NCBI GenBank assembly: GCA_028277795.1
Contig: JANQFP010000104.1
Location: forward strand, 1-40,108
Length of the DNA stretch: 40,108 nt
Reading direction: 5' to 3'
Source of the DNA: Rhodospirillales bacterium
GTDB taxonomy: Bacteria > Pseudomonadota > Alphaproteobacteria > Rhodospirillales > JANQFP01
In this document: positions 7,065-29,536 of the stretch, piece after piece
Layout of the letters: each line of letters starts with the position of its first letter
Numbering within the stretch: the stretch's first letter is position 1
Translations under genes and position numbers: made by a program
Notes under the pieces: generated by a model
Seen by the model: the letters and a program-made list of their open reading frames with translations, nothing else
The model's database searches: none
What the model was told of the DNA's origin: nothing

Positions 7065-7100
7065 TCGACTGCGGCCGGTGGTTGAGATACCGCCACGCCA

Positions 7101-7127
7101 ATGAAATGACCCTCCGGGCCATTTCAT
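7101..7127. terminator. Hairpin after RND/dehydrogenase operon
   Basis: ATGAAATG (7101-7108) pairs perfectly with CATTTCAT (7120-7127). An inner CCC/GGG stem follows after one mismatch, around a TCC loop. It sits 37 bases past the dehydrogenase stop. There is no T-run after it on either strand, so intrinsic termination is uncertain; it may instead be part of the repeat that begins at 7119. Confidence 0.45.
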
Positions 7128-7211
7128 GCGAAGGCGGTGGCGCTCAAGCGCCGCGCTGGCTTTCCGGCGCGCCATGACGGCGCTTCGCGAGTCGGTTCTA
7201 TGGCACGCCGG
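7119..7211. repeat. Dispersed intergenic repeat, copy A
   Basis: A 93-base stretch aligns without gaps to 26204-26296, with 71 of 93 positions identical by hand alignment. The most conserved parts are CATGCGAAGGC at the left and CCGGCGCGC followed by ATGACGGCGCTTCG in the middle. Within this copy GCGAAG pairs with CTTCGC, and GGCGCT-CA-AGCGCC is a small inner hairpin, so it could fold. It lies between the dehydrogenase and the tusA-like gene, which converge here. Confidence 0.7.
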
Positions 7212-7213
7212 CA

Positions 7214-7441
7214 TCAGCCGCCGAGGCGGACGACGATGGTGAACACCCCGCCGTCCTCGGTGCACGACACCAGCGCATGTCCGGCGGCCTCGCAGAAGGT
7301 CTCGAAGTCTTTCGGCGCGTCGCGGTCGGTGGCCAGGACCTCCAGCACCTGGCCAGGGGCCAAGTCGGCCGCGGCCTTGCGGGCCCGCAGGACGGGCAGC
7401 GGGCAACTGAGGCCCGTGAGGTCCAGTTTGACCGTGCTCAT
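7214..7441 (-). CDS. tusA: TusA-family sulfur carrier protein
   Basis: This small protein of 75 residues has the diagnostic TusA/SirA N-terminus: a short beta strand, then GLSCPLPVLRARKA with the Cys-Pro pair (C13-P14) that carries persulfide sulfur. GQVLEVLATDRDAPKDFETFCEAAGH completes the two-layer fold. TusA proteins accept sulfur from desulfurases or rhodaneses and pass it on for tRNA thiolation, cofactor synthesis or sulfur oxidation. A longer open frame upstream is rejected because family similarity begins exactly at this ATG, which has AAGGCGAG a short way upstream. The gene lies near a BigR/SqrR-type regulator at 7931, consistent with a role in cellular persulfide traffic. Two extra cysteines (C50, C60) are present. 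Confidence 0.9.
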   Translation of the reverse strand: MSTVKLDLTGLSCPLPVLRARKAAADLAPGQVLEVLATDRDAPKDFETFCEAAGHALVSCTEDGGVFTIVVRLGG

Positions 7442-7930
7442 GGAGGCTCGCCTTTTCCTGGACTCGGCGCCGGGTGCCGGGAATCGCTCATAACACCGCC
7501 CCGCCGAACCCGGCAAGCCGCATCCACGCCCGCCCGCAATCGCCGGCGTCGATGCTGCGCCGCACACACGAATTTCGCTTTGCGGCACGGCGATGGCAGG
7601 CCCCGTCTCGTGTGCGCCCCTGTCATGATACCGGACCGAAATGGCAATTTCGGCCCCATTCCTGACCAGTATCGGCGGTCGGAGGGTGGCGCCAGGGACC
7701 ACTATGGGGAGCGATCAGGGGAGAGTCCGTTGTGCGCCGCACAACGCGTCGGCAAATTTTGGCTGGCGCTGGCGTTCGGCGTCCACTACATTATAATTCC
7801 TTAATACAATAACGGGTATTGTATACCAGCGTTGAGGTCGGACAGGGGGTGGCGCGGCGGCTCGGCCGTCGTAGCCGGAGGAGATCCGGTCGGTGCCGTG
7901 ACTGAGGCAGGGGACAAGTGGTAACAGGCT
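7442..7930. other. Intergenic region between tusA-like gene and arsR-type regulator
   Basis: The two flanking genes are divergent, and about 490 bases separate them. I find no convincing gene here. The left part is GC-rich without visible structure. The stretch 7785-7830 is abruptly AT-rich and carries the candidate promoter and inverted repeat listed separately. Confidence 0.6.
7792..7824 (+). promoter_or_regulatory. AT-rich promoter with inverted-repeat operator upstream of arsR-type regulator
   Basis: TATAAT at 7792-7797 could be a -10 element, although no good -35 hexamer is seen. Just downstream, ATACAATA (7804-7811) and TATTGTAT (7817-7824) form a perfect 8-bp inverted repeat around ACGGG. 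ArsR repressors of the BigR/SqrR group bind AT-rich dyads overlapping their own promoters, so autoregulation by the product of 7931-8284 is a reasonable inference. Confidence 0.6.
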
Positions 7931-21172: not shown

Positions 21173-23335
21173 TCAGCCGCCGTACCGGGCCTTGGCCTCG
21201 CGGCGGCGCGCGTGGAGGATGAACTCGGTGTAGCCGTTGGGCTGATCGCGGCCCTGGAACACCAGGTCGCAGGCGGCCATGAAGGCGACGCTGTCCCCGA
21301 ACTCGGGCGCCATGGGCCGGTAGGCGGGGTCGCCCTCGTTCTGGCGGTCCACCACGGCGGCCATGCGCTTGAGGGTCTCCATCACCTGGTCCTCGGTGCA
21401 GGTGCCGTGGTGCAGCCAGTTGGCGATGTGCTGGCTGGAGATGCGCAAGGTCGCCCGGTCCTCCATCAGGCCCACGTCGTCGATGTCGGGAACCTTGGAG
21501 CAGCCGATGCCCTGGTCGATCCAGCGCACCACGTAGCCGAGGAGTCCCTGCGCGTTGTTGTCCAGCTCCTCCTGCACCTCGTCGGGCGACAGGTTGACCC
21601 GATGCAGGAGCGGGATGGACAGGATGGCGCCGAGGTCGGCGCGGCCGCGGCCGGCCAGCTCCTTCTGACGCGCCGCCACGTCCACCTGGTGGTAGTGCAT
21701 GGCGTGCAGGGTGGCGGCGGTGGGTGACGGCACCCAGGCGCAGTTGGCCCCGGCCTGCGGATGGGCCGCCTTGATCTCGACCATCTGTTTCATCTCGTCG
21801 GGCTTGGGCCACATGCCCTTGCCGATCTGGGCGCGGCCGGGAAGCCCGGTCTCCAGGCCGATGTCCACGTTCCAGTCCTCGTAGGCGCGGATCCACGGGA
21901 GCGTCTTCATGGCCTCCTTGCGCTGCATGGGCCCGGCTTCCATGCTGGTGTGGATCTCGTCGCCGGTGCGGTCGAGGAAGCCGGTGTTGATGAACACCAG
22001 CCGGTCCTTGGCCGCGCGGATGCATTCCTTGAGGTTGACGGTGGTACGGCGCTCCTCGTCCATGAGCCCGACCTTCAGGGTGTGGCGGGCCAGTCCCAGG
22101 GCATCCTCGACCCGGCCGAACAGGGTGTCGGTGAAGGCCACCTCCTCGGGTCCGTGCATCTTGGGCTTGACCATGTAGACGCTGCCGGTGCGGCTGTTGC
22201 CGGGTCCGTTGCCCTTGAGGTCGTGCAGGGCGATCAGGGCGGTCACCATTGTGTCCAGCATGCCTTCCGGGATCTCGTCTCCGTCTTCGTCCAGCACCGC
22301 GTCGGTGGCCATCAGGTGGCCGACGGTGCGAATCAGCATGAGGCTGCGTCCGGGCAGGACCAGGGTGCCGCCGTCGGGGGCCGCGTAGTCCCGGTCCGGC
22401 TCCAGGCGACGGGTCAGCGTCTTGCCGCCCTTCTCCACCGTCGCCTCCAGGCCGCCTGTCATCAGGCCCAGCCAGTTGCGGTATGCCAGCACCTTGTCTT
22501 CGGCATCCACGGCGGCGATGGAGTCCTCCAGGTCCTGAATGGTGGTGAGGGCCGCTTCCAGGACCACGTCCTTGACCCCCGCCGGGTGATCCCGGCCGAC
22601 CGGATGGCCGCGGTCGATGTGCAGCTCGATGTGCAGTCCGTTGTTGCGCAGCAGGATGACCTCGTCCCCGCGGCTGCCGGCGAGTTGCTCCGGCCGCTCC
22701 AGCCCCGTCGTCCCGCCGTCCGCCAAGGTCACCGCCAGGGTGCCGCCATGGACCGCATAGGCCGTCGCCTCGCCGTGGCTGCCGCGCGCCAACGGCGCCG
22801 CCTGGTCCAGGAACCCGGTCGCGTAGGCGATGACCCGGGCGCCACGGGCCGGATTGTAGCTGGCGCCGGTCTCGCAGCCGTCGTCCTCGGCGATCACGTC
22901 GCTGCCGTACAGGGCGTCGTACAGGCTGCCCCAGCGGGCATTGGCCGCGTTCAGCGCATAGCGCGCGTTCATCACCGGCACCAGCAGTTGCGGGCCGGCG
23001 ATCTCAGCGATCTCCGGGTCCGCGCCCATCGTGGTGATGTGGAAGTCGGCGCCTTCCGGGACCAGGTAGCCGATGTCGGTCAGGAACTGCCGGTACTCGG
23101 CCGCGTTGGCGGGCCGTCCCTGACGGCCCCGGTGCCAGGCATCGATCTCCGCCTGGAGCCGGTCGCGGCGCTCGAGCAGGGCCGCATTCATCGGCACCAG
23201 ATCGCCGACGATCTCGTCCAGTCCGGCCCAGAAGACCGCCGGCTCGACGCCGGTGCCGGGGGCCGCCTCCTCGGCGATGAAGTCGCGCAGGACAGCCGCC
23301 ACCTGCAGACGGCCGATGCGGGTTCGCTCGGTCAT
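21173..23335 (-). CDS. glcB: Malate synthase G
   Basis: At 720 residues it matches the length of malate synthase G, which condenses glyoxylate with acetyl-CoA to give malate. Active-site blocks are present: [20 protein letters not shown] with the catalytic Arg, [11 protein letters not shown], the Mg-binding [20 protein letters not shown] region, and [28 protein letters not shown]-type sequence holding the cysteine and catalytic Asp near 620-640. The N-terminal domain ([16 protein letters not shown]) is also typical. The ATG at 23335 overlaps the stop of the reductase-like gene, so the pair is co-translated. Together they suggest use of glycolate or glyoxylate as carbon source. Confidence 0.96.
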
Positions 23336-24048
23336 CGCCCCGCGCCTTGCCGATGGGCTCGTGGGACCTCCAGGATGCGGGAATCGGCGAAGCCGCCTCG
23401 CAGGGCCTGGCGCACCCGCGCCGGGTCGACGCCGGCCCGCCGGGCCAGGGTGAGGGCCTCGGCCACGGCGCCGATGGTCAGACCGACGATCACCTGGTTG
23501 GCCGCCTTGGCCACCTGCCCGGCGCCGACGGCACCCACGTGGACGACGCTCTTGCCGAGCACGGCGAACAGGGGTTCGCCCCGGGCCACGGCGGCCTCTC
23601 CGCCGCCGGCCATGATGTTCAGCGTGCCGCCCTCGGCCCCGATGGTGCCGCCGGACACGGGCGCGTCCACGTAGGCGCCGCCCTTTGCCTCCACCGCGGC
23701 GGCGAATTCCCGGGTCTCGGTCACGGCCGTGGTGCCCATGTCGATGATCAGGTGGTCGGGCCCCACACCGCTGATGACGCCGCCGTCGCCCAGCAGCACA
23801 TGGGCCACGGCCGGGGTGTCCGGCAGCATCAGGATGACCGTCTCTGCACGGGCCGCTACGTCGGCGGGTCCGGCGGCGGCGACCATGCCCTCGCCGGCCA
23901 GCTCGTCGACCACGCCCCGGGAGCGGTTGTGGACGACCACCGTCGCCCCCGCCCGGTGGAGGTTGCGGGCCATGGGCTTGCCCATGAGGCCGAGCCCGAT
24001 GACCCCGACGGTCCATCCCGTCAGGGACGTGGTGCGGTTGGATGTCAT
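23332..24048 (-). CDS. Tartronate-semialdehyde-reductase-like dehydrogenase, C-terminally truncated
   Basis: A 238-residue protein; complete relatives have about 290-300. The Rossmann motif [20 protein letters not shown], the substrate loop [22 protein letters not shown] and the catalytic Lys in [11 protein letters not shown] are intact. The sequence follows GarR/GlxR to [11 protein letters not shown] and then ends in [10 protein letters not shown], lacking the final 55-60 residues that include the KDL-LA helix and complete the dimer and substrate pocket. AGGAGA precedes the ATG. Its stop overlaps the glcB start by ATGA, and no frame downstream continues the family. A deletion joining it to glcB is the simplest explanation. 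It may be inactive. Confidence 0.82.
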
Positions 24049-24795
24049 GTGCTGATCTCCTAGCTTAGCCGACGCCCTACGCCGCTCCCAAGGACGATTC
24101 CTTCGCGCCCAGGCGGTGCCAAATTCTCCGCAAGGGCAAGAAGCGGGCGACCTCCGACGAAACCAAACATATGCGAGCGCAAGATGGCGGTCTCGGCCTT
24201 AAGCGCATTGAGCTTCGCGGGAACCGTACACTCTCCCATGATCGGATTGAATTGAGACGATCAGAAGTTCGCGCCTCAGGATTCGGCGTTCCGGCATCGG
24301 CCCCAATCGAATGCTGCCGCCCCCGTTTTCCTGGGATCGTCACCCCGCGACAGCTTCAAGGGCTTGGCCGGGAGCTTGCCAATACAGCTGCTTATTTTTC
24401 ACATGAAAAAAATACAAAAAACGCCGCAAAAGAATATTTTGTTAATTATTTGTCCAGTTATTGCCCTCCAATTTCAGCGGCATGTATTAATAAGTTTATG
24501 TTTATTATAGATATTTTCAGAAAATACGAACGAAACAACTGTTTCGGCATTTTTTGTTTGCGCTTTCAATTTCATTTTGCCTGAGCACCACCTGAGTGGT
24601 CGGCATGCTGCGCGCGAACTTCGCTCGGCAAGCTGTCGAATTCACTAGAATCCATGCCTCAAAACAATGACGTTGATTGTGTGAAAACCTCCTTGATCAA
24701 CGAATAGAATGCGTACATCCTCGTTGGTCGCAAGACGCCATTCGGGCGTTAGTCGCCGACGGGGGGATCGGAGGTCGAAAAGGTAGACGGGTTCG
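24049..24795. other. Gene-poor AT-rich region
   Basis: No convincing gene is seen. From about 24385 to 24590 the base composition falls sharply, with runs such as AAAAAAATACAAAAAACG and TAATAAGTTTATG, against the GC-rich surroundings. A plus-strand frame (24171-24584) crosses the composition boundary and the hairpin at 24531, and a minus-strand frame (24645-25052) opposes a better-supported gene; both are treated as chance. The region looks like the left flank of an acquired segment. Confidence 0.6.
24531..24556 (+). terminator. Possible intrinsic terminator in AT-rich region
   Basis: CGAAAC (24531-24536) pairs with GTTTCG (24541-24546) around AACT, and a run of six T follows two bases later (24550-24555). 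The stem is short and weak, and no well-supported plus-strand gene lies immediately upstream. It may be a leftover from an acquired segment. Confidence 0.4.
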
Positions 24796-25155
24796 ATGTG
24801 CGATCCGGAGTCGAATGGAAGAGACGCGGCCGCTCCGAGCGGCCTCAAGATGATGGAGCAGACATTTGGAGGCTCGCTCGCTCTCACGGCAATTTTGATC
24901 GGTGTATTCACGCTGGCCGCTGCAGGGCTCGAGGGAGTAGCGCGCGGGTACGCGTTGCCATACGGTTTCTTAATGTCCGCGGTCGGTGTGTTGGTCATCG
25001 GGAGCGCCGCCGCAGGTTTTTTCGCATACCGGGACGTGGCTCGCGCCTCCAAGATGACGCCCTACCAAACACGCGTTGTCCGGGCATTTACTGCCGTACT
25101 GCTTTTGGCCGCATTTGTTCCCATAGGCTTCGCGCTAACGTTGTTCCCGAATTGA
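24796..25155 (+). CDS. Small three-helix membrane protein of unknown function
   Basis: A 119-residue protein. After a polar start come three hydrophobic segments: LALTAILIGVFTLAAAGLEG (about 27-47), YGFLMSAVGVLVIGSAAAGF (about 56-75) and FTAVLLLAAFVPIGFALTLF (about 97-117). RDVARASKMTPYQTRVVR lies between the last two. No family is recognised. An internal ATG-ATG at 24850 would trim the polar N-terminus and is a plausible alternative start. It is the first of three closely spaced plus-strand genes; the ribosome binding site of the next gene overlaps its stop codon. Confidence 0.65.
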   Translation: MCDPESNGRDAAAPSGLKMMEQTFGGSLALTAILIGVFTLAAAGLEGVARGYALPYGFLMSAVGVLVIGSAAAGFFAYRDVARASKMTPYQTRVVRAFTAVLLLAAFVPIGFALTLFPN

Positions 25156-25168
25156 GGAGGAGAGCGAA

Positions 25169-25639
25169 ATGGTGAAGGATATTTCGTGGGAATTCGCATT
25201 TCCGGAAAAAGACGATTTAAAGCGTCTGTTGGAAAATGACAAAACTATGCAATGGTTCTATACAGAAACGAATAACAAAATAAAAGCTCTTACTGATGCT
25301 GTTCTTATATCATATAAAGAATATCGAAAAAATCTTCCCGAAGAAGAACCATGGTCTCGCGAAACCGTTACATGGCTTACGCAAAACTGTTTCGAAGAGA
25401 CGGATCTTTGGATTAGCATCATAGAAACTGAGAAATCCGTGGATTTTCCGCGCATTACTGATTTTTTGAGAGATAAATACGAAGGGCAGTGGGGTGATGT
25501 AAAAGCCAAATCAAAAACGCAATTTGCACAAGTGCTTTTGATATTCAACAACATTGCTCGCCCTTGCGACCGAATAATTTTTACTCCAGGATTATTGGGA
25601 ATACTTGATCCCAACGTGAAAGCGCCATCGTGCAAATAA
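25169..25639 (+). CDS. Unknown soluble protein in AT-rich cassette
   Basis: A 156-residue, mainly helical and charged protein with many Lys, Glu, Trp and Phe residues (LENDKTMQWFYTETNNKI, FEETDLWISIIETEKSV). There is no signal peptide and no recognised motif. GAGGAGGA stands eight bases before the ATG and overlaps the preceding stop. Base composition is strikingly foreign: two 60-base lines inside it (25261-25320 and 25321-25380) contain only 16 and 26 G or C. Codon use (AAA, AAT, ATA, TTT) differs from all genes outside this region, which strongly suggests horizontal acquisition. No function is proposed. Confidence 0.8.
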   Translation: MVKDISWEFAFPEKDDLKRLLENDKTMQWFYTETNNKIKALTDAVLISYKEYRKNLPEEEPWSRETVTWLTQNCFEETDLWISIIETEKSVDFPRITDFLRDKYEGQWGDVKAKSKTQFAQVLLIFNNIARPCDRIIFTPGLLGILDPNVKAPSCK

Positions 25640-25653
25640 AAAAGGAGGAAGCA

Positions 25654-26025
25654 TTGAAAAGGAAATTGGCCACTGAGGGCGCGGCGACACGGCGGGCGAC
25701 TCTAGCGGCGATGGGAGCATTCGCTTTGGGTGGCTGTGCCGCTGCCGTCGGCGTCCCGGTCGCCGGGGCGTTCGGTACAGCGTATCTGAAACGGGAACGC
25801 ATTGCCGAAATCGTCGACGAACAATTCGGAGCCAAGCCCGACGAACCGGTGGACATCGAGAAGATCAAGGAGATTGTGGACCAGGAGATCGCCGAATTCG
25901 TGGCCAATGCCAGGAAACAAAACTGGTATCTTAGAGACGAAGAAATATACAGATTAAAGAAGACCGCCGTCAAAAACTATTTGAAAATATTAAAAGATGC
26001 AAACTACCCTATAAAGGCTCAATGA
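25654..26025 (+). CDS. Putative Tat-type lipoprotein of unknown function
   Basis: A 123-residue frame read from TTG at 25654, chosen because AAGGAGGA ends five bases before it; an in-frame GTG at 25630 overlaps the previous gene. The N-terminus TRRATLAAMGAFALGGCAAA combines twin arginines, a hydrophobic stretch and a Cys in a lipobox-like ALGGC. This suggests a Tat-exported lipoprotein, or possibly a transmembrane anchor. The rest is charged helix (ERIAEIVDEQFGAKPDEP, DIEKIKEIVDQEIAEFVANA) ending YLKILKDANYPIKAQ. It is the third gene of the cassette. Its first half is GC-richer than its 3' end, so the gene may be mosaic. Confidence 0.7.
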   Translation: MKRKLATEGAATRRATLAAMGAFALGGCAAAVGVPVAGAFGTAYLKRERIAEIVDEQFGAKPDEPVDIEKIKEIVDQEIAEFVANARKQNWYLRDEEIYRLKKTAVKNYLKILKDANYPIKAQ

Positions 26026-26203
26026 GAGCGTGAGTCACAAACAGCGGTTTTCTTGAATACTAGCCGTATACATTGGAGCTCTCGTCATTCAGGGCATGAA
26101 AGGGATGGCCAGCTTCAATAAGTCCAAATTTTCCCTCATGCTAGATGGTAAGCCGCCGGCATGGCGTCAAATCACAGCCGCACCAACGAACCGCTCCTAC
26201 GAC

Positions 26204-26296
26204 CCATCTCATGCGAAGGCCGCGACACTCCGGTGCCGCGCAAACTTGCCGGCGCGCGATGACGGCGCTTCGAAAGTCGTCTCTTAGGCGCGCGCC
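26204..26296. repeat. Dispersed intergenic repeat, copy B
   Basis: This 93-base stretch matches 7119-7211 without gaps at 71 of 93 positions. The conserved pieces are CATGCGAAGGC and CCGGCGCGC followed by ATGACGGCGCTTCG. CGAAG near the left end can pair with CTTCG near the right. Copy A also lies in a gap between converging genes. The hairpin seen just left of copy A (7101-7127) is not present here. Confidence 0.7.
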
Positions 26297-26315
26297 AAAA
26301 TATCTCGGGGCATTG

Positions 26316-26347
26316 AAGGCAGCGGGTGACCGTCACCGCTGCCTTTT
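26316..26347 (+). terminator. Strong intrinsic terminator, probably bidirectional
   Basis: AAGGCAGCG (26316-26324) pairs perfectly with CGCTGCCTT (26337-26345). The inner GTGAC/GTCAC extends the stem after one unpaired G. Four T follow on the plus strand (26344-26347). It lies between the converging unknown cassette and the YjbQ gene, starting seven bases from the latter's stop, so it could serve both. The T-tract favours the plus strand. Confidence 0.75.
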
Positions 26348-26353
26348 CTGATC

Positions 26354-26782
26354 TCAGCCGTTGCCGACGACGGTCACCTCGACGGTCCGGCGCCGGGGCC
26401 GGTTGTCGTGGTTGATCAGGATGGCCTGCTGCCAGGTGCCCATGCGCAGCTTGCCCCGGCGCACGGGCACGGCCAGGGACGGTCCCATCATGGCCGCCTG
26501 CACGTGGCTGTGGCCGTTGCCGTCGTGCCACGCCTCCTCGTGGGCGTAGCGGATGTTCTGCGGCGCCATGCGCTCGATGGCCCGCTTCAGGTCCTCCACC
26601 GCCCCGGGCTCGTATTCGATGGTGGTGAGCGATCCGGTGGAGCCGACGACAAAGGCGTAGGCATTGCCGTCCACCACCCCGGAGTCGCGGACGATCTCGC
26701 CCAGATACCGGGTGACGTCCGTGGTATCCGGGCCGGTGGCGAGGGACACCTCGAAGGAATCGCAATGAACGATGGTGGCCAT
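26354..26782 (-). CDS. yjbQ: YjbQ/UPF0047-family protein
   Basis: A 142-residue protein of the normal family length. The signature region is complete: HEEAWHDGNGHSHVQAAMMG followed by PSLAVPV and GKLRMGTWQQAILINHD. The conserved His, Asp and Glu residues form a presumed metal or phosphate site. Family members show weak thiamine-phosphate-synthase activity in genetic tests, but the true cellular role is unsettled. GGAGGA precedes the ATG by nine bases. It appears to be a single-gene transcript ending at the hairpin at 26316-26347. Confidence 0.92.
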   Translation of the reverse strand: MATIVHCDSFEVSLATGPDTTDVTRYLGEIVRDSGVVDGNAYAFVVGSTGSLTTIEYEPGAVEDLKRAIERMAPQNIRYAHEEAWHDGNGHSHVQAAMMGPSLAVPVRRGKLRMGTWQQAILINHDNRPRRRTVEVTVVGNG

Positions 26783-26924
26783 AGACCCGAATCCTCCCTA
26801 CCGCCGGTCCGCCGCGGCCGGCACCGGCCGGATGGTACCAAAAAGCGGGCCGCGGGGCAGCCTCGGAGACGGGCCCGTCGGGCGACCGGACGCTGCCGCG
26901 CAGCAGCCATGCGGCCCCACGTCT

Positions 26925-26953
26925 TTGAGTTGCAAGTCAAGTCGTGATATAAT
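26925..26953 (+). promoter_or_regulatory. Near-consensus sigma-70-type promoter for the GGDEF gene
   Basis: TTGAGT (26925-26930) and TATAAT (26948-26953) are separated by exactly 17 bases, close to the ideal for the main sigma factor. This stretch is AT-rich compared with its surroundings and leads into an untranslated leader of over 100 bases before ATG 27074. A second TATAAT at 26979-26984 lacks a matching -35. Confidence 0.6.
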
Positions 26954-27073
26954 AAAGTTCGAATATGAAGAGGGTGTATATAATTCACAGCTTGAACGAT
27001 GAAGAAAAGTAGAAATATTATTTCCACATTTTATTTAACATTAGTTTGATATCGTATCGATTTCGTCGGCAAT

Positions 27074-29536
27074 ATGACCAAACAACGTCGCGTTCGTGTG
27101 GTTAGTCGCCTGCGGCGTGCCGCCGCGCCCGCCGTGGCGGTCGGCGTGCTTGTCGCCTGCCTGTCCGCCGCCGTGACGGCGGCCCCGGCGCCGGGGCCTC
27201 TCCCGGCGGCCGTCGTGGTGGCCCAAGCGACGGCCCCGTCCCTGGGCGAGCGCTTGTGGCGGTTCTACGGGCGCAACGAGACCGCCCTGTGGGCGGCGTC
27301 GGGCCTCGCCCTCGGGGTCGCGGTCTATGCGGCGGCCATGGTCGCGCAGACGGGGCGGCGGCGGCGGGCCGAGCAGCAGTTGGAGAAGATCCTCAACACG
27401 CTGGAGCGGCGGGTCGCCGAACGTACCGCCACCCTGACCGCCCAGATGGCCGAGCGCGACCGCGCCGAGGCGGCGCTGCGCGAAAGCGAGGCCCGCTACT
27501 ACGCCATGTTCGCCGAGAACGCGGCGGTGATGCTGCTGGTGGACCCGGACGGGGGTGCCATCGTCGACGCCAATGCCGCCGCCTGCCGCTTCTACGGCCT
27601 GCCGCGGGAACGGCTGATCGAAGGCACCCTGGCCGACATCGCCGCCATGGACGCCGAGCAGGTGGCCGAGGCCCTGCGGGCGGCGCGCGACGGTGCCGCC
27701 GGCGCCGCCCACCAGCGTCACCGCCTGGCCTCAGGCGCCGTGCGCGATGTGGAGGTGTACGCCAATCCCATCCGCGTCGACGGCCGGAGCCTGCTCTTTT
27801 CCATCGTCCACGACGTCACCGAGCGCCGCCGGGTCGAACGGGCCCTGCGCCGCAGCGAGGAGGGCCTGGCCAGCGCCCAGCGGGTGGCCCACCTGGGCAA
27901 CTGGGTGTGGGACATCGAGACCGGCATGAGCTGGTGGTCCGACGAGATGTACCGCATCTTCGGCCAGCGGCGCGGCGACGTGGACCCCAGCAGCCTCACC
28001 GTGCTGCGGCACGTCCATCCCGACGACCGCGGCGCCATCGAGAGCATGGTCACCGAATGCCTGGCCGAGCGCGCGCCGGTGGAGGCCGAGTTCCGCATCG
28101 TGCGCCAAGACGGCGAGGTGCGGACCGTCCATGGCCGCGCCGAGGTCACCGTCGATGCGGCCCGCAAGCCCATCCGCATGACCGGCGTGATCCAGGACAT
28201 CACCGAGCGCAAGCAGACCGAGGAGCGGCTGGCCCGCCGCGAGCGGGAGTTCCACCAGTTGGTCGACGCCGTCCCGGTGCTGCTCGCCTACCACGACGCC
28301 GAGGAGCGCTACCGGCTGGTCAACCGGCACTTCGAGGACTGGTTCGGCATCAGCCAGGACGCCATCGTCGGCCGCACCGTGGCCGAGGTGGTCGGCGCCG
28401 ACGCCTATGCCGTCCTGCGCCCCAACATCGCCCGGGTCCTGGCCGGCGAGTCCTTCGTCTGGCAGGGCCCGGTGACCTTCGAGCGGGCCGGCACCCGCCA
28501 CGTGCGGGAGGCCTATGCGCCCCGCCGGGGCTCCGATGGCCGAGTGGTCGGCTACTTCCAGCTCACCGAGGACGTCACCGCCTTCAAGCGGGTCGAGGAG
28601 GCCCTGCGGCGCAGCGAGGCCGAGCTGCGCGCCGTGTTCGAGGCCACCGACGACGCGGTGACCCTGCTCGACACGGAGGGCGTCATCAAGCTCATCAACG
28701 AGCCCGCCGCCCGCATCCTGGGCCGCGCGCCCGACGAGGTGGAAGGCCGCCTGCTGTACGACTTCCTGCCGCCGGACGCGGCCCGCGAGCGCCGCCTCGA
28801 GGTCGAGTCCGTGCTCGTCTCGGGCGACGGCTTGCGGGTCGACCATCCGTGGGGCGAGCGCTGGTTCGAGACCGGCATCCATCCGGTCCACGAGGGCGAG
28901 ACCACCCTCGGCGTGGCCATCTACGCCCGCGACATCACCGACCGCAAGCAGGCCGAGGACCGCATCCGCCACCTGGCCACCCACGACGACCTCACCGACC
29001 TGCCCAACCGCAACCTGGGCCGCGACCGGCTGGCCGGCGCCCTGGCCCGGGCGCGCCGTGACTCCACCATGGCGGCGCTGCTGTTCATCGACCTCGACGG
29101 GTTCAAGCCCGTCAACGACACCCTGGGCCACGACGCCGGCGACACCGTGCTCAAGGAAGTGGCCCGGCGGCTGTCGGGGAGCGTCCGCGAGACCGACACC
29201 GTGGCCCGCTTCGGCGGCGACGAGTTCATTGTCATCCTCACCCACGTGACCGACGACTCGGCGGCCGGACGCATCGCCGAGGCCATCCTCGAGCGCCTGC
29301 CCCGGCCCATCGCCCTAGCGGATCAGGAGGTGGCGGTGGGCTGCTCCATCGGCATCGCCGTCTACCCCGCCGACGGCGACACGCCCGAGCAGATGATCGA
29401 TCAGGCCGACGCCGCCATGTATCTGGTCAAGCGCGCCGGCAAGCACCACTACCGGTTCGCGTCGTCGGCCGGCGCCGGCGAGTCCTCGGACGGCATCGGC
29501 TCGTCGTCGACCATGGCGGTCTCCAAGTTCAGGTAG
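27074..29536 (+). CDS. Membrane-anchored four-PAS diguanylate cyclase
   Basis: An 820-residue signalling protein. Two hydrophobic segments (about 16-36 and 74-92) place a short loop outside the membrane. A coiled coil (RAEQQLEKILNTLERRVAERTATL) leads into four PAS domains (about 143-258, 270-385, 390-510, 515-630), several ending with the DITERK-like linker. The GGDEF domain (about 640-795) has an intact GGDEF in ARFGGDEFIVIL, preceded by RETD, the RxxD inhibitory site five residues upstream. Active c-di-GMP synthesis with product feedback is therefore predicted. No EAL domain is present. The last 88 bases overlap the TolC-family gene on the other strand. The signal sensed is unknown. Confidence 0.9.
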   Translation: MTKQRRVRVVSRLRRAAAPAVAVGVLVACLSAAVTAAPAPGPLPAAVVVAQATAPSLGERLWRFYGRNETALWAASGLALGVAVYAAAMVAQTGRRRRAEQQLEKILNTLERRVAERTATLTAQMAERDRAEAALRESEARYYAMFAENAAVMLLVDPDGGAIVDANAAACRFYGLPRERLIEGTLADIAAMDAEQVAEALRAARDGAAGAAHQRHRLASGAVRDVEVYANPIRVDGRSLLFSIVHDVTERRRVERALRRSEEGLASAQRVAHLGNWVWDIETGMSWWSDEMYRIFGQRRGDVDPSSLTVLRHVHPDDRGAIESMVTECLAERAPVEAEFRIVRQDGEVRTVHGRAEVTVDAARKPIRMTGVIQDITERKQTEERLARREREFHQLVDAVPVLLAYHDAEERYRLVNRHFEDWFGISQDAIVGRTVAEVVGADAYAVLRPNIARVLAGESFVWQGPVTFERAGTRHVREAYAPRRGSDGRVVGYFQLTEDVTAFKRVEEALRRSEAELRAVFEATDDAVTLLDTEGVIKLINEPAARILGRAPDEVEGRLLYDFLPPDAARERRLEVESVLVSGDGLRVDHPWGERWFETGIHPVHEGETTLGVAIYARDITDRKQAEDRIRHLATHDDLTDLPNRNLGRDRLAGALARARRDSTMAALLFIDLDGFKPVNDTLGHDAGDTVLKEVARRLSGSVRETDTVARFGGDEFIVILTHVTDDSAAGRIAEAILERLPRPIALADQEVAVGCSIGIAVYPADGDTPEQMIDQADAAMYLVKRAGKHHYRFASSAGAGESSDGIGSSSTMAVSKFR

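Follow-up and report, generated by a model that had tools for sequence, protein, structure and literature searches.

An AT-rich islet of three orphan open reading frames in a Rhodospirillales genome, perhaps left over from an unsampled integrative element

An AT-rich islet with three plus-strand open reading frames (ORF1, ORF2, and ORF3) was found between a 3-hydroxyisobutyrate-dehydrogenase-like gene and a UPF0047 (YjbQ) gene in the window, by which we mean the whole 40,108-nucleotide stretch of DNA analysed here. The islet lies on a contig (C159) of a Rhodospirillales genome of 4.38 Mb in 253 contigs, which is the sole representative of its family among the genomes compared. On balance, and with slightly better than even confidence, we interpret the islet as a small foreign ORFan operon that encodes a membrane-associated protein set and is most likely the remnant or cargo of an unsampled integrative element. 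The features of the locus are as follows.

23332-24048, minus strand: 3-hydroxyisobutyrate-dehydrogenase-like gene (start at 24048), left neighbour of the islet
24385-24795, plus strand: AT-rich leader, delimited by composition; presumed promoter region of the trio
24796-25155, plus strand: ORF1, 119 aa; weak ribosome binding site; orphan in the collections searched
25156-25168, plus strand: Shine-Dalgarno sequence GGAGGAG of ORF2, in the 13-nt gap between ORF1 and ORF2
25169-25639, plus strand: ORF2, 156 aa; soluble and acidic; orphan in the collections searched
25640-25653, plus strand: Shine-Dalgarno sequence GGAGG of ORF3, in the 14-nt gap between ORF2 and ORF3
25654-26025, plus strand: ORF3, 123 aa; TTG start; orphan in the collections searched
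26173-26298, plus strand: decayed copy of a MITE-like repeat at the right islet edge, probably outside the gene set
26354-26782, minus strand: UPF0047/YjbQ gene, right neighbour of the islet

The three frames are open from the starts at 24796, 25169, and 25654 that a preliminary description of this DNA had named, and the close spacing it reported is borne out by the gaps of 13 and 14 nt. With these starts, no start overlaps the preceding stop, contrary to that description; an overlap with the end of ORF2 would arise solely from a different start, GTG at 25630, to which the TTG at 25654, closely preceded by GGAGG, is preferable as the start of ORF3. The ribosome binding sites, all of which had been called good, are strong Shine-Dalgarno sequences for ORF2 and ORF3 but not for ORF1, where GGAGGT is located approximately 19 nt upstream of the ATG. 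In the leader, whose part 24385-24600 has 33% G+C, there is one weak sigma-70-like match (24681-24710), which carries no evidence of function.

Two observations were made on the neighbouring genes. The dehydrogenase-like ORF (23332-24048, minus strand) ends early and matches just positions 1-53 of the 122 of NAD_binding_11, indicating that the C-terminal part is absent or lies in another frame; this could be due to either a truncated gene or an assembly error. Farther to the right, a PAS-GGDEF gene (plus strand, ending at 29536) and an outer-membrane-efflux gene (minus strand, ending at 29449) are convergent with an 88-nt overlap at 29449-29536.

The G+C content drops from approximately 70% around the islet to 44-56% within it. 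The segment 24385-26173 has 47.6% G+C compared with a mean of 67.7% in the background, which consisted of 400 kb of stretches sampled from the same genome and read in 1.5-kb windows, and just 0.4% of these windows had a G+C fraction of 0.49 or less. The foreign composition claimed earlier therefore holds for the patch, but it is uneven: ORF2 (38.6% G+C) is alone among the three in being AT-rich along its whole length, whereas ORF1 has 59% G+C and ORF3 begins at 63% and ends at 32%. Two 60-base lines had been said to contain 16 and 26 G+C; the first count is exact and the second is 25. The G+C by codon position separated the trio, with GC3 values of 0.66, 0.36, and 0.60 for ORF1, ORF2, and ORF3, respectively (range 0.36-0.66), from seven reference genes of the window at 0.83-0.96 (five at 0.92-0.96, one at 0.91, and an ArsR-type gene at 0.83).

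The same figures bear on a different reading, in which the ORFs are native genes, young or very fast-evolving, that lie in an old intergenic or relaxed AT-rich region with no transfer from outside. ORF1 and the first half of ORF3 are intermediate in G+C, as this reading would have it, and AT-rich spacers are present nearby. In the stretch 26921-27073, which precedes the PAS-GGDEF gene, the G+C is 31% and there are two promoter-like sites, and hence AT-rich spacers exist here without gene acquisition. Moreover, the lineage is isolated, with no other member of the family compared, so that native genes too would appear to be orphans. However, the GC3 of ORF2 (0.36) is far from the host value, and two genes in succession with strong ribosome binding sites resemble an imported operon. 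We consider a native origin unlikely.

It is also conceivable that the AT-rich patch is non-coding and that some of the frames, ORF1 before the others, are open by chance; the poor ribosome binding site of ORF1 and its 59% G+C could be cited in favour. With sequences simulated at the composition of the whole region, a run as long as the longest open one turned up in 21 of 500 cases, which is moderately unusual and not extreme. At the composition of ORF2 itself, however, a 156-codon open run did not occur in 2000 first-order Markov simulations; furthermore, the G+C of ORF3 by codon position is coding-like, and ORF1 gives three clean hydrophobic peaks. Chance frames are an improbable explanation, and in our view ORF2 and ORF3 are very likely to be genes and ORF1 is probably one.

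The predicted products mostly agree with what had been proposed. ORF1, described as a three-helix membrane protein, has three computed hydrophobic peaks, corresponding to three predicted membrane helices, and a pI of 9.0. The middle protein, described as soluble, gave no hydrophobic peaks; it is acidic (pI 5.0), and its single-sequence AlphaFold model was unusable (pLDDT 36.5). For ORF3, which had been likened to a Tat-type lipoprotein, the motif TRRATL...LGGC and one N-terminal hydrophobic stretch are present, in that an RR motif is followed by a glycine-rich hydrophobic stretch bearing the LGGC site. However, the hydrophobicity runs on beyond the Cys, and for that reason a plain membrane anchor is as likely for ORF3 as a Tat-type lipoprotein. 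The model of its C-terminal helical region is of moderate confidence, with block means of 72-88 for residues 41-120, and Foldseek found no fold match for it (best E 2.5).

Subsequently, we consider the searches for relatives. The preliminary description recognised no known family, and indeed none of the three proteins had a match above cut-off in Pfam or NCBIfam; the best Pfam match of ORF1 was a sub-threshold one to Phage_holin_3_6 (17.3 bits, cut-off 28.4). Nothing convincing was obtained from PHROGs, lysis families included, and no component was matched among the 5027 models of PADLOC-DB 2.0.0. A PDB sequence search gave no match for ORF2 and a best E of 0.12 for ORF3. In 72,556 plasmids and 50,697 phages, neither the proteins (protein search) nor the islet DNA (DNA search) had a match. 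Viral contigs contained no relative of ORF1 or ORF2. The single match of ORF3 in the viral contigs, to a contig (L003) which we take from its ORFs to resemble an ssRNA levivirus, was rejected as a coincidence of the lipobox GAFALGGC.

A pattern scan of contigs from 84,980 species with ORF2 and ORF3 as queries, which detects close relatives only, returned no relative. Whole-genome samples were searched with ORF1 (150 relatives), ORF2 (60 relatives, 385 genomes of the class, and 398 of the phylum), and ORF3 (60 relatives and 385 of the class), and they yielded just chance-level or membrane-helix matches. These rejected candidates comprised an ORF1 match in G457 (E 2.5e-5), which was a permease-like frame alike in membrane helices; three further ORF1 matches in relatives with E of 0.005-0.009, the chance level for 150 genomes; an ORF2 match in G322 covering 38 residues, whose E of 0.008 over 385 genomes is at chance level; and ORF3 matches in G299 and G094, likewise at chance level (E 0.008). 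The trio together was not found in any other genome searched. As judged by these sequence comparisons, ORF1, ORF2, and ORF3 are orphans within the collections searched, and remote homologues are possible.

With regard to mobility, the islet was found to be framed by neither a tRNA nor an Rfam RNA nor a convincing pair of repeats, and no integrase, transposase, or attachment site was found at it, so that the searches gave none of the marks of an integrative or transposable element (an integrase or transposase, an attachment site or framing repeats). The flanks (24049-24795 and 26026-26353), translated piecewise in six frames, gave no pseudogene or transposase remnant above the Pfam cut-off. In the stretches read from six order-level relatives, the YjbQ orthologues are without dehydrogenase or GGDEF neighbours, and no empty site was found. 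Since neither a sister genome nor an empty site was at hand for comparison, the foreign origin of the islet and its status as a remnant are suggested by two lines, composition and orphan status. The repeat at the right edge was rejected as the carrier of the islet, because its well-preserved copies elsewhere stand alone as 126-nt units and the local copy is decayed.

The islet shows two properties of an ORFan cluster, namely genes without homologues in the collections searched and a base composition that departs from that of the host genome. For small AT-rich ORFans that sit in clusters of unusual composition, an origin from integrative elements has been proposed (PMC2718499). The main clusters in that survey were defined by seven or more atypical genes in ten, and its authors allowed that clusters of two to six genes might be what is left of older elements (Cortez, Forterre and Gribaldo 2009, PMC2718499). 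Like those clusters (PMC2718499), the islet groups short genes without relatives, has an atypical composition, and has few or no recognisable mobility genes; unlike the main clusters, which have more genes, it has three.

The genome has other islets of this kind. Patches with a 1.5-kb G+C below 52% number three in 400 kb, the islet included, and there are several milder ones besides. One of the other patches contains a sulfotransferase-like gene plus one gene without an assigned family. The presence of genes without a family in other AT-rich patches is a point for the foreign-ORFan reading. On contig C190, a patch that falls to 42.5% G+C carries a 386-aa gene (L049:15151-16311) with no Pfam or PADLOC match. 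A moderately AT-rich patch of the same contig (minimum 53% G+C) encodes a PtuA/AriA-type-like AAA ATPase and, after it, a 296-aa partner to which neither Pfam nor PADLOC assigns a family (L048:12262-14252).

That ATPase indicates that AT-rich patches of this genome can hold defence-type genes, and an immunity, defence, or envelope device had been suggested for the trio itself. In such a system, ORF2 would be a sensor, effector, or immunity factor, and ORF1 and ORF3 would act on or protect the envelope. Architecture is what speaks for it at the islet, where a membrane, a soluble, and an anchored protein are encoded together in foreign DNA; the systems of PADLOC-DB 2.0.0 likewise include small genes in one orientation whose membrane and soluble products are partners, in DNA of foreign appearance. 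The suggestion found no support in the searches, however, as the trio, unlike those systems, has no model match for any of its proteins, and hence no component matched to a known anti-phage defence family. Nor was recurrence near defence or mobile genes seen, there being no homologues in the collections searched. The islet lacks a framing tRNA, Rfam RNA, or convincing repeat, and the adjacent genes tested for family are metabolic, efflux, signalling, or UPF0047 genes with no defence gene among them. A dedicated defence or immunity role is doubtful, and it is very unlikely that the trio is a membrane-associated defence or immunity module of three components, not described before, on an unsampled mobile element.

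The least probable reading is a decayed phage lysis cassette, with ORF1 as the holin, ORF2 as the endolysin, and ORF3 as a spanin-like anchored protein: the order and sizes of the genes fit (a membrane protein, a soluble protein of approximately 156 aa, and an anchored helical protein), as does the sub-threshold holin match of ORF1, but the idea was unsupported when tested, since no holin, endolysin, spanin, or other lysis family was matched above cut-off, no phage matched, ORF2 is without the E-8-[DC]-5-T lysozyme motif, and no other phage genes were seen beside the trio.

The repeat at the right edge belongs to a family of its own. It is a 126-nt unit with near-perfect terminal inverted repeats (TACCGCCGCGCC...GGCGCGCCGGTA), of which at least 40 copies were scored in the genome (128 first-look candidates). 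Two copies are in the window, at 7088-7213 and 26173-26298, the latter with approximately 76% identity to the consensus; others are found, for example, in L126, L134, L104, and L141, and other members of the order have weaker matches. Identical triplets, mostly of the form TNA, flank 24 of the 42 full-length copies. A TNA duplication of 3 nt resembles that of the IS1031 group of IS5 elements, but a search of the genome gave no DUF4096-type transposase. The consensus, read as RNA, has a folding energy of -67.5 kcal/mol with a z of -2.7.

The stop codon of a coding-like frame was abutted by 20 of 39 copies, compared with 19 of 146 control stop triplets within 150 nt, by a crude coding score that was trained on six genes and overlooked the copy at 7088-7213. 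The right flank of that copy, TCA (7214-7216), is the stop of a 162-aa minus-strand ORF (7214-7702), which we assume to be TusA-like. Targeting of TNA together with selection against intragenic insertion may explain much of the stop-codon enrichment. Bacterial MITEs are known in general (for example PMC5896051); literature searches found no paper on stop-codon targeting by such repeats, which is weak evidence of absence. The repeat family, often abutting stop codons, may merit its own study and is perhaps worth more than the islet.

Taken together, the preferred reading is that of a three-gene ORFan operon without recognisable mobility genes, which would have been gained horizontally from an unsampled integrative element (a phage, a plasmid, or similar) as a remnant or cargo fragment and would have landed between the 3-hydroxyisobutyrate-dehydrogenase-like gene and the UPF0047 (YjbQ) gene. 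The AT-rich leader would drive one mRNA over all three ORFs, and the layout suggests that the trio is transcribed as one unit. The products would be an inner-membrane protein of three helices, a soluble acidic one, and a helical one anchored in the membrane, which probably work jointly at the membrane and may form a membrane complex there. The predicted features thus point to a membrane-associated cellular role, and one might guess at a selfish, accessory, or defence-like function. The islet alone makes no open question directly testable. If it is real and foreign, it would be one more case of the unexplained ORFan fraction of bacterial genomes, which maybe comes from unsampled mobile elements.
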